Source of the DNA: Sedimenticola sp.
Lineage (GTDB): Bacteria; Pseudomonadota; Gammaproteobacteria; Chromatiales; Chromatiaceae
DNA: 64,000 nucleotides
Reading direction: 5' to 3'
Assembly (NCBI GenBank): GCA_026992075.1
Contig: JALXAM010000036.1
Span: 62,001 to 126,000 of the forward strand
The notes under the pieces were generated by a model. That model was not told where the DNA came from. It saw nothing but the letters and a program-made list of their open reading frames with translations, and did no database searches. The position numbers and the translations under genes were made by a program. Shown one piece after another: positions 19,397 through 58,540 of this stretch. Positions within the stretch are counted from its first letter, which is position 1. Each line of letters starts with the position of its first letter.

Positions 19397-19900
19397 GTGG
19401 AACCCCTGCCCATCCTCACCATTCCCGACGAGCGCCTGAAGCAGGTCTCCGAGCCGGTGGAGCGGTTCGACGACGAGCTGCGCCGCTTCGTGGAGCAGTT
19501 GGAGATCACCCGCCGCCACGGCCCCGCCGCCGTGGGCATCGCCGCGCCCCAGGTGGGGCGTTTCCAACGCATCTGCATCGTGGACTGCTCCATCACCCGC
19601 AAGCCGGTGCCCAACCACGGCCACCTGGTGCTCATCAATCCCGAGATCACCCACTGGGAGGGGTACGAGGTGGGGCGCGAGGGGTGCCTATCGGTGCCCG
19701 ACTACACCGGCAACGTCATCCGCGCCACCCAGATTCGGCTTCGCGCCTTCGACGAGCAGGGCGAGGAGCACGAGTATGAAATGGAGGGTTTCGAGGCGCG
19801 TGCCGTGCAGCACGAGATCGACCACCTCGACGGCATCCTCTTCATCGACCGGGTGGTGAGCCGCCGCACCGATCTCTTCCGGCGCAAGGTTTACAAGTAG
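19397..19900 (+). CDS. def: Peptide deformylase
   Basis: This 167-residue metalloenzyme removes the N-formyl group from new proteins. All three family motifs are intact: GIAAPQ (47-52), EGCLS (95-99, metal Cys97) and HEIDH (139-143). It begins with GTG six bases after the ACT-protein stop. It is not next to fmt as usual, and the sequence ISRRHG/ITRRHG region differs from classical Def, so it may be a second deformylase copy in this genome. That would need the rest of the chromosome. Confidence 0.93.
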   Translation: MEPLPILTIPDERLKQVSEPVERFDDELRRFVEQLEITRRHGPAAVGIAAPQVGRFQRICIVDCSITRKPVPNHGHLVLINPEITHWEGYEVGREGCLSVPDYTGNVIRATQIRLRAFDEQGEEHEYEMEGFEARAVQHEIDHLDGILFIDRVVSRRTDLFRRKVYK

Positions 19901-19903
19901 GGG

Positions 19904-19948
19904 GGTAGGTCGGGCTTCAGCCCGACTGAACAACCACTAGCGTTGGAA
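19904..19948. repeat. Dispersed repeat GTAGGTCGGGCTTCAGCCCGAC, left copy
   Basis: GTAGGTCGGGCTTCAGCCCG begins at 19905. Its inverted copy ends at 20110, so the two copies bracket the palindromic element at 19949-20056. The motif is a common proteobacterial intergenic repeat. Confidence 0.6.
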
Positions 19949-20056
19949 GGCCGGTGACCAGCCCTTGTTGGCGGGGTTTCGGCAGCAGGGATGCTGCCGC
20001 AAAGCCTACATGGATGTATTCACGGCGTCCCCGCCAACAAGGGCTGGTCACCGGCC
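19949..20056. repeat. Palindromic repeat with conserved core and locus-specific arms, copy C1
   Basis: A 28-nt left arm (19949-19976, starting GGCCGGTGACCAGCCC and ending GGCGGGG) pairs without mismatch with the right arm (20029-20056). The core between them contains the GGCAGCAGGGATGCTGCC hairpin and the GGATGTATTCACGGCGT stretch. The core is shared with copies at 56964, 57122 and 58280, but the outer arm sequence is unique to this site. Confidence 0.8.
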
Positions 20057-20134
20057 CCGGGAAAGCGCTGGGACGTTGTTCTTCGTTTGTCGGGCTGAAG
20101 CCCGACCTACCGGGATGAGAGAGGGTGAACGCCA

Positions 20135-56940: not shown

Positions 56941-56963
56941 GACGCCGTTTCCTCCGGCCCGCC

Positions 56964-57063
56964 CCTCCCGGCAGTGCCTGGCGGGACCGCTACGAGCACC
57001 TCCCTGTGCGCTCGGCCTCGGCCCTCCCTGGCCTCGGACGTCCCGCCAGGCACTGTCGGGAGG
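56964..57063. repeat. Palindromic repeat with conserved core and locus-specific arms, copy C4
   Basis: Arms 56964-56987 and 57040-57063 pair over 24 nt with one G-T. Arm sequence starts CCTCCCGGCAGTGCCTGG. The core reads in the opposite direction to copy C2 next door and shares CGCTCGGCCTCGGC and CCTCGGACG with it. C4 and C2 fill most of the 310-bp gap between oppC- and oppB-type genes; no gene is there. Confidence 0.72.
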
Positions 57064-57121
57064 AGCTCGGCGCCGAACCGGGTTCCCGCACAAGGGACCC
57101 TGTTCCACTTACGGTTGGTGA

Positions 57122-57225
57122 GAGGTTCCGGGTGGCCGGTGGCGGGGCGTCCGAGGCAGGGATGCCGAGGCCGAGCGTACAGGGATGTATTCACTGCGTC
57201 CCCGCCACCGGCCACCCGGAACCTC
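57122..57225. repeat. Palindromic repeat with conserved core and locus-specific arms, copy C2
   Basis: Perfect 26-nt arms (57122-57147, starting GAGGTTCCGGGTGGCC; complement 57200-57225) enclose a core with GGCAGGGATGCC and ACAGGGATGTATTCACTGCG. The core matches C1 (19949) but the arms do not, apart from the inner GGCGGGG. Confidence 0.8.
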
Positions 57226-57250
57226 GGGATCGGTCTTGGTTCGGCAGGGC

Positions 57251-58204
57251 TCATTTCAGGCTCACCCTCGGGTCCACCACCTTGTAGAGGATGTCGTTGA
57301 GGATCAGCACCAGCACGAAGAGCACCGCCGTGAGCCCCACCACCGCCTTGAGCACCGGCTGGTCCCCGGTGGTGATGGCGTCGTAGGTCACCAGGCCCAC
57401 GCCGGGGATGCCGAAATAGCTCTCGATGAGCAGGGCGCCGGAGACCACCACGAAGGGGATGGAGAACATGATGCGGGTGATGATGGGGATGAGGGCGTTC
57501 TTCAGCACGTGCTTGAACATCAGTTCCATGGGCGGGGTGCCGAAGGCGCGGGCGGTGCGCACGTGGTCGCGCTCCATCTCCTCCACCAGCACGGCGCGGT
57601 AGAAACGGGTGTTGTAGCCCAGGGCGACGAACACCGTGGCCAGGGTGGGCACGGTGACATAGCGCAGATAGTCGCCGAAATCGTAGACGTTCCAGCCCCG
57701 CACCGGGAACCAGCCCAGGCCGTAGTTGGACGAGAAGAGGATCTGGAAGGCGATGATGACGATGAGGAAGCTGATGCTCATGCCCACCACCGAGCCCCCC
57801 ATGATCAGCTTGTCCAGCCAGCGCCCCCGCCGCCAGGTGGCCACCATTCCCAGGGCGACGCCCAGCAGGTTGCCGAGCACGAAGCCGGGCAGGATCAGCG
57901 CCAGCGAGATGGGGATGGTACGCTTGAGGATGGAGCTCACCCGCTCGCCGGTGGAGTCGGAATAGCCGAAGTCCAGGGTGGCCAGCTCCTTCAGATATTC
58001 CAGGTAGCGGGTGAGGAAGGGGCGGTCGTAGCCGAGCTGGTGGCGGATCTCCCGAATCTGCTCCTCCGTGGCGTTCTTGCCGATGAGATCGTAGGTCTTG
58101 TCGGGACCGAAATAGACCATCAGCAGGAAGCTGATGAGGGTCACCCCCAGGATCAGCGGGATCCCGGTGACGAGCTTGCGCAGGGCGTACTGGAGCATCT
58201 CCAT
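57251..58204 (-). CDS. Oligopeptide ABC transporter permease (OppB/DppB-type)
   Basis: This 317-residue permease opens LQYALRKLVTGIPLILGVTLISFLL (family signature, first helix) and has six helices. The EAA-type loop is RTARAFGTPPMELMFKHVLKNALIP and SYFGIPGVGLVTYDA the late motif. It is separated from the solute-binding gene by 351 bp and from the oppC-type gene by 310 bp, both filled with structured repeats, an unusual break in an otherwise tight opp operon. Confidence 0.93.
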   Translation of the reverse strand: MEMLQYALRKLVTGIPLILGVTLISFLLMVYFGPDKTYDLIGKNATEEQIREIRHQLGYDRPFLTRYLEYLKELATLDFGYSDSTGERVSSILKRTIPISLALILPGFVLGNLLGVALGMVATWRRGRWLDKLIMGGSVVGMSISFLIVIIAFQILFSSNYGLGWFPVRGWNVYDFGDYLRYVTVPTLATVFVALGYNTRFYRAVLVEEMERDHVRTARAFGTPPMELMFKHVLKNALIPIITRIMFSIPFVVVSGALLIESYFGIPGVGLVTYDAITTGDQPVLKAVVGLTAVLFVLVLILNDILYKVVDPRVSLK

Positions 58205-58279
58205 GGCGGGCCTATTCTAGCAGCCGACGGAGCTTGAGAGCCCACAGCCCTGGATCATTGCGTCTTGTGTCCCGGGCAG

Positions 58280-58540
58280 GCCGGATTCCTTTCCTTTTCA
58301 GCAGGAACGCCGTAAGGGCACCTCGAAAAATTCGAGGTGCCCGTGCGGGATATGGAAGTCCCGCCGTTTTCAATCACGCAAGTGATTGAAAATGAAGCAA
58401 ACCGGAAACCGCGTTTTCGGTTTGCGTGGAGAAAAATTGCCTGGACGGCAATTTTTCGAGATCCCCCTAAATACCTCCATGTAGGCTTCGCAGCGGCATC
58501 CCTGCCGCCGAGATCCCGCTGAAAAGGAAAGGAATCCGGC
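58280..58540. repeat. Palindromic repeat with conserved core and locus-specific arms, copy C3 (interrupted)
   Basis: Perfect 23-nt arms are at 58280-58302 (starting GCCGGATTCCTTTCC) and 58518-58540. The core, in reverse orientation, contains the CCATGTAGGCTTCGCAGCGGC and GGCATCCCTGCC motifs of copy C1. It is split by a 152-bp insert (58316-58467). Without the insert the core aligns base by base with C1, including GGAACGCCG next to the break. The gap between the oppB-type and binding-protein genes (58205-58555) holds nothing else. Confidence 0.78.
58316..58467. mobile_element. Five-hairpin element, copy B
   Basis: This 152-bp element is flanked by TAA on both sides (58313-58315 and 58468-58470). 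Its ends form imperfect inverted repeats (GGGCACCTCGAAAAATT and the complement of AATTTTTCGAGATCCCC). Five hairpins follow in the order seen in copy A when read on the minus strand: AAAAATTGCC/GGCAATTTTT, GCAAACCG/CGGTTTGC, TTTTCAATCAC/GTGATTGAAAA, GCGGGA/TCCCGC, GGGCACCTCGA/TCGAGGTGCCC. Non-coding. Confidence 0.72.

Follow-up and report, generated by a model that had tools for sequence, protein, structure and literature searches.

The window analysed here, a stretch of 64,000 nt from Sedimenticola sp., contains four copies of a repeat that we regard as mobile and as carrying a paired, putative CsrA/RsmA-type site, whose stems would be kept by template switching together with selection on the fold of the core strand; we give this reading a probability of roughly 0.58. 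In the proposed mechanism, the core strand would fold into a three-way junction of one long stem and two hairpins with A-N-GGA-N hexaloops, and as RNA the element would present two sites to a CsrA/RsmA dimer, their GGA motifs separated by 20 nt. Spread would take place as DNA inside other repeats, namely REPIN-like pairs in the window's genus and a MITE-like repeat in one genome of another family (G101), with the arms going along. After insertion, template switching between the arms during replication would copy one arm onto the other and would sometimes invert the core, and selection on the core-strand fold would also maintain the structure. Binding of CsrA/RsmA is the most likely function of the repeat. 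The fold, the loops, the insertion, the arm copying, the paired changes and the core inversion appear from comparison of sequences, and from these we infer CsrA binding, transcription and any effect on the host, be it as a decoy or by control in cis.

A search of the window confirmed the four copies at the places given by an earlier reading made from the letters alone (the sequence-only reading), and the common core, which that reading had put at about 50 nt, is 52 nt long. In copy 1, the left arm (19949–19976, plus strand) pairs with the right arm (20029–20056) at 28/28 positions, and the core (19977–20028) has hexaloops AGGGAT at 19987–19992 and ATGGAT at 20010–20015. Copy 2 (56961–57066) has its core on the minus strand with loops AGGGAG and AGGGAG, and its arms, 56961–56987 and 57040–57066, pair at 25/27 positions (93%). 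Copy 3 is again on the plus strand, with arms 57122–57147 and 57200–57225 paired at 26/26 positions and a core (57148–57199) with hexaloops AGGGAT at 57158–57163 and AGGGAT at 57181–57186. The nearly perfect pairing described by the sequence-only reading is seen in copy 4 as well, whose minus-strand arms (58280–58306 and 58514–58540) pair at 26/27 positions (96%). Copy 4 had been listed simply as one more copy; it is real, but its normal core, with loops AGGGAT and ATGGAG, is split into 58307–58312 and 58468–58513 on the minus strand by a 152-bp hairpin array at 58316–58467. TAA stands on each side of this array (58313–58315 and 58468–58470), the first three bases of the second core piece being one of the two TAA copies, and joining the flanks across the insert by a script gave a 52-nt core. 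All 8 loops in the window fit A-N-GGA-N, and RNA fold z-scores for three copies were −10.8, −8.6 and −8.2. A profile-model search of the window also recovered the copies, partly by construction because two window copies were in the alignment of the model.

In the genome containing the window (G000, 2.73 Mb), GGATGTNTTCACGGCG gave 86 matches with at most 2 mismatches versus 1 for the reversed control, and GGATGTATTCACGGCG gave 63 core matches with at most 1 mismatch versus 0 for the reversed control; the further copies taken from the genome scan are those among the matches listed, which include copies in Ectothiorhodospira haloalkaliphila ATCC 51935 and Oceanimonas smirnovii ATCC BAA-899. The arms do differ from copy to copy, as had been noticed, but many copies within G000 fall into subfamilies with recognisably common arms. 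The element was found in 28/114 gamma-proteobacterial genomes sampled (G000 included) at E ≤ 1e-4, up to 37 candidates being scored in each genome. One 92-nt copy searched against plasmid and phage records had no match in either collection, and cargo of phages or plasmids was rejected on the basis of this copy.

The fold was examined in an alignment (A1) of 104 of the 107 non-redundant copies with a 52-nt core, L257, L031 and the second L096 copy being excluded by hand. With no structure supplied, RNAalifold returned for these 104 gapless copies a three-way junction of arm stem, hairpin 1 and hairpin 2, adding two pairs at the base of hairpin 1, and both hairpins have the hexaloop A-N-GGA-N with a C-G closing pair. 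In a structure drawn by hand for the same copies, 95.9% of cells are paired, and both-sided changes occur in 31/33 pairs and affect 965 cells versus 285 in shuffles. Arm pairing in these figures is partly preselected because a copy needed 17 or more of 24 arm pairs to be admitted. Hairpin 1, which was not a selection criterion, has 93.7% of its cells paired and both-sided changes in 7/7 pairs. The long arm stem measures 19–41 bp among the measured copies, mostly 24–34 bp. In the 195 copies with arms, the columns of hairpin 2 read C in 193, A in 192, a variable letter, GGA in 195, a variable letter and G in 195; the letter before GGA differs from the commonest one in 60/195 copies and the letter after it in 37/195. 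Since hairpin 2 was partly included in the search seed, the independent test of the loops is hairpin 1, which has A-N-GGA-N in 179/195 copies, the remaining 16 retaining GGA in a shorter or altered loop in 14 cases and lacking it in 2 (L238 and L078). A looser count of GGA in hairpin 1 gave 181/191.

Single copies show some variation in fold and make-up. In minimum-energy folds, both GGA of copy 2 are in loops, copies 1 and 3 have that of hairpin 2 paired, and copy 3 has that of hairpin 1 paired as well. The partner of the hairpin-2 GGA region in the copies at 19949–20056 and 57122–57225 is the conserved GCGUCC stretch, a pairing that may represent an alternative state. Five loci (L001, L021, L229, L231 and L248) have another hairpin module in place of the left half, with loop letters such as CATGGATG and CAGGGATT. 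The subfamily CGGAGGC...GCCGACG of G000 and its relatives has tandem G.A / A.G mismatches in hairpin 1 (A1 columns 26–27), a pattern associated with sheared G.A pairs.

Passages of PMC7652899 give the CsrA SELEX site as RUACARGGAUGU, with ACA and GGA invariant, the hexaloop of RsmE targets as ANGGAN, and 10–63 nt as the distance between two sites that are bridged by CsrA. Consensus hairpin 2, CUACAGGGAUGUA, matches 11/12 of the SELEX positions, the element has the ANGGAN hexaloop closed by C-G, and in copy 1 the two GGA are separated by 20 nt. The csrA gene was found in 25/28 element-bearing genomes and in 21/21 of those that are clean and have a completeness of 90% or more, while completeness is 67–88% in the three genomes with no match; the gene was likewise found in 19/19 relatives, and its presence is a weak test because csrA is common. 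CsrB/CsrC and RsmX/Y/Z are single-locus sRNA genes with promoters. Like these CsrA/RsmA sponges, as far as the available parts of their descriptions go, the repeat has several hairpins with GGA loops, the ANGGAN hexaloop and a spacing suited to bridging by a dimer. Unlike them, it is dispersed and mobile (the 63 core matches in G000), and it has two sites per repeat unit, a long covarying stem and no Rfam match at gathering score. CsrR1/2 of Alcanivorax is also single-locus according to passages of PMC9788540, and passages of PMC5864184 concern Aln1a-c of Alteromonas.

Only a tRNA was found by the Rfam search of the window at gathering score, and the CsrB/RsmZ sRNA family was rejected, as none of its models matched in the window at that score. 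A permissive search of the copies gave sub-gathering matches, mostly to models of animal and plant microRNA precursors and on both strands, the best being MIR8670 (E 4.8e-7, both strands); others were DUF3800-IV (E 5e-4, plus strand), Ysr224 (E 9e-5 to 0.009, minus strand) and a few more. In the three alignments inspected (MIR8670 twice and mir-584), only the long stem was matched. The core letters did not occur in the literature text searched, and the repeat is not described in the available parts of the literature on CsrA repeats, palindromes, MITEs and sponges, including PMC9788540, PMC5864184, PMC3733652 and PMC3116915.

The element was found inside different larger repeats. Copy 1 lies between two palindromes, 19904–19926 on the plus strand and 20089–20111, inverted, on the minus strand, which are complementary at 23/23 positions and which we take, with passages of PMC3733652, to be REP palindromes of the GTAG type; those passages give REPs as 20–40 bp. 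Inverted GTAG palindromes stand on both sides of 18/53 copies in G000, 10/17 in G002 and 1/82 in named genomes; a further 12/53 copies in G000 have a REP flank on one side only, and 80/82 copies of named genomes have none. Matches to Y1_Tnp were found in G000 (2) and G002 (1), and a search of G008, which has 5 core matches (at most 1 mismatch), gave none. At site 58280, the orthologous gap in G001 and G004 is filled by a REPIN of about 70 bp with no core. The repeat is like a REPIN, or a GTAG REP pair moved by RAYT, in that inverted GTAG palindromes enclose the 18 copies in G000, but the core is not a REP and nearly all copies of named genomes are found outside REPs. The repeat that surrounds the core in G101 is about 365 bp long and has inverted ends resembling ACAGGCTGTTGAAAAA, and versions of 164–167 bp occur without the core. 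These units are flanked by TA on both sides in 7/22 cases and on one side in 11/22, thus TA is not established as the target in G101. Terminal inverted repeats, as in MITEs, are present in both the G101 unit and the 58316–58467 array, which are too short for a transposase gene, whereas the core element has no such fixed terminal repeats, its arms varying in sequence by copy. As a MITE, the core element itself was rejected, since its arms differ between copies.

Arm changes were also followed in a recent burst in G101. This genome is a draft of about 500 contigs with 43 matches to the typed core pattern, of which 39 were usable (the others being near a contig end or identical), and dropping the divergent L395 left 38 copies. 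The 31-bp arm GCCCCGAGAGGCGGGAAGGCCCTCCCGGGGG is common to all of these, no copy having more than 2 changed pairs, and the copies differ at 120/2280 sites (5.3%) in their 60-nt flanks and at 30/2356 in their arms. Seven pair changes are both-sided and all are complementary; when right arms were shuffled among copies the mean was 0.34, and 0/20,000 permutations reached 7. Of the six distinct both-sided changes, four are transversion pairs, one is a transition pair and one is a paired 1-nt deletion. One-sided arm changes make up 16 entries, and for pairs 8 and 6 the one-sided form of a both-sided change was seen in another G101 copy. Among these copies, which were fetched through their cores, 40/46 core differences fall on the three loop N letters and one other site, and GGA was never changed. 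In 8/38 copies the core lies inverted with respect to its flanks, and the six inverted copies listed have four core variants, which makes a single old inversion unlikely; these inversions rest on draft assemblies, most of the retrieved genomes being fragmented like G101, and an assembler could flip a core between perfect 31-bp arms.

The arms common to the burst copies, together with the paired changes, indicate that arms travel along as the element is copied and later change together, and we propose that this paired drift arises because template switching copies one arm onto the other. The sequence-only reading had reasoned that simple copying of the repeat would copy the arms too. This is what the 38 G101 copies with the same 31-bp arms show, so the puzzle that it had seen is resolved. 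Its suggestion of a process that builds a local inverted repeat agrees with the paired changes, the paired 1-nt deletion, the one-sided forms and the core inversion, but such a process would act on resident copies and not at insertion. Passages of PMC8604942 and PMC8794818 describe arm homogenisation with spacer inversion as the footprint of template switching, and the repeat is like these quasipalindromes in both respects, with both-arm changes beyond independence and with spacer inversions as far as the draft assemblies go. The same passages concern yeast coding genes and RNA genes, whereas the present repeat is dispersed and bacterial. Maintenance of stems by template switching is argued from reconstructed RNA-gene histories in parts of PMC8794818, and the G101 burst, with one-sided forms beside completed ones, would be a record of template switching keeping stems paired.

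Comparisons at orthologous sites cover an incomplete set, consisting of the pairs that were found. At site 19949, 14 of 15 genus genomes gave a regional match and the fifteenth gave none; 12 of the 14 have the two flanking genes directly adjoining, with neither arms nor core, and lack the whole inserted unit (19895–20131; REP, arm, core, arm, inverted REP). Arms that predate the core, which the sequence-only reading had named as a finding against it, were hence not seen at this site. The element is present in G000 and G002 as a common 237-bp insertion including the flanking REP palindromes, the two genomes being 92% identical over 1.6 kb around it, and a single arm pair differs, on both sides (G-C to A-T), with 0 one-sided changes. 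In the 57122 copy, 5 arm pairs differ between G000 and G011, 5/5 on both sides and three of transversion type. Of the two alternatives offered by the sequence-only reading, the stem kept while its sequence drifts and the process that builds a local inverted repeat, each holds in part. At site 56961, the core is mostly kept between G000 and G011 and the outer arms are different, with pairing intact in each, and in G012 both elements there are inverted and have other arms. At site 58280, G011 has the same arms without the 152-bp array, with a 10-N assembly gap further in. Free loss of pairing, the other finding that had been named as contrary, is partly seen, as 59/194 core-like matches are without strong arms and arm changes in the orthologous pairs L188/L244 and L219/L242 are one-sided only. 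In two same-site pairs between G000 and G002 (L182/L236 and L184/L243), REP flanks that resemble each other enclose inner elements of different subfamilies, as though copies had exchanged them.

The core strands of the window copies lie in both orientations, on the plus strand at 19949 and 57122 and on the minus strand at 56961 and 58280. Orientation was counted with a codon-scored gene caller on segments beside the element for 164/195 copies, the others having short flanks or being loci outside the groups. The flanking genes are ++ in 48, -- in 33, convergent in 46 and divergent in 35; 33/164 copies have their core strand antisense to the genes on both sides. Relative to genes, the sense strand is in excess by a small margin at most, and it is chiefly this that speaks against a simple function linked to mRNA. 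In the same 164 copies, arm mismatches read on the core strand are of G.T type in 175 cases versus 34 of A.C type (ratio interval 3.5–8.2), and purine-purine mismatches number 115 versus 17 for the complementary classes, suggesting that the fold of the core strand matters. The G.T:A.C asymmetry is still 29:8 where both genes run antisense to the core strand, and it amounts to a weak 30:17 in G000. Single-stranded DNA would produce the same asymmetry, which fits it as well as RNA. The scan for promoter-like (sigma-70-like) sequences near the window copies found none. A role as intrinsic terminator was rejected, with at least 5 T in the 8 nt just 3′ of the right arm in only 2/195 copies; the scans of the window are blind to terminators whose stem has a 52-nt loop.

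The hairpins may instead be single-stranded DNA handles that a transposase of HUH/Y1 or RAYT type recognises on one strand, with the loops as recognition letters and no RNA function. Such handles would fit the absence of a clear strand preference relative to genes, the REP pairs beside many G000 copies and the Y1_Tnp matches in G000 and G002, and G.T and G.A mismatches are tolerated in single-stranded DNA too. This reading nevertheless seems unlikely, because most copies of named genomes have no REP flank and the G101 vehicle is a different one, because G008 has core matches but no Y1_Tnp match, and because the loop letters fit a CsrA site, while we know of no single-stranded DNA handle with these letters. 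Less likely still is a stem maintained, without template switching, solely by selection for RNA structure that passes through G-U intermediates. The strong covariation and the G.T excess are what it would predict, but 5/6 distinct both-sided changes in G101 are transversions or the paired deletion and not G-C to A-T by way of G.U, both-sided changes there are about twentyfold above the shuffle mean, and an inverted core, if not an artefact of assembly, would call for template switching or for recombination at the arms.

Mutation bias by itself might also account for a perfect palindrome with no functional copy, since template switching alone could keep the arms perfect and nearly a third of core-like matches have no strong arms. 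The strand asymmetry of arm mismatches argues against such junk, as does the conservation of the G101 cores, in which GGA never differs and most differences fall at four sites while the flanks differ by 5.3%, again in copies fetched through their cores; we consider it quite improbable. Insertion of the core alone, with arms built from the local flank each time, is the strict form of the second alternative of the sequence-only reading and is the least credible of these explanations, at a very low probability. It would explain why one Thioalkalivibrio genome has near-identical cores with dissimilar arms, and why arms at site 56961 were replaced between G000 and G011 with most of the core kept. 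However, recent G101 copies have common arms and the empty 19949 site holds no arm sequence, so that both G101 and the 19949 copy contradict the building of arms anew at each insertion.

Our preferred reading is the mobile repeat with a paired, putative CsrA/RsmA-type site. If its loops bind CsrA, the repeat would bring the recognition signal of a global regulator to dozens of places per genome, and its spread would be linked to the control of metabolism and lifestyle. A broader and more doubtful claim, which we put forward tentatively, is that mobile repeats spread CsrA/RsmA sites by dozens through many gamma-proteobacterial genomes, the load acting as a dispersed sponge or re-wiring the Csr regulon, and template switching keeping the stems without selection on the stem letters.

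On the plus strand of the window, the array that splits copy 4 shows terminal inverted repeats and a target duplication, as expected of a MITE, and it has 15 further matches in G000 at 93–99% identity, plus one at 83%. It aligns with the 164-bp repeat of G101 as a homologous hairpin array. Twenty array loci for this alignment were hand-picked from the list of matches. Hairpin H2 of the window array (58345–58364) has the loop ATGGAA; in the alignment, the H2 loop contains GGA in 20/23 arrays, counted by eye and with some arrays near-identical, and the stems covary.
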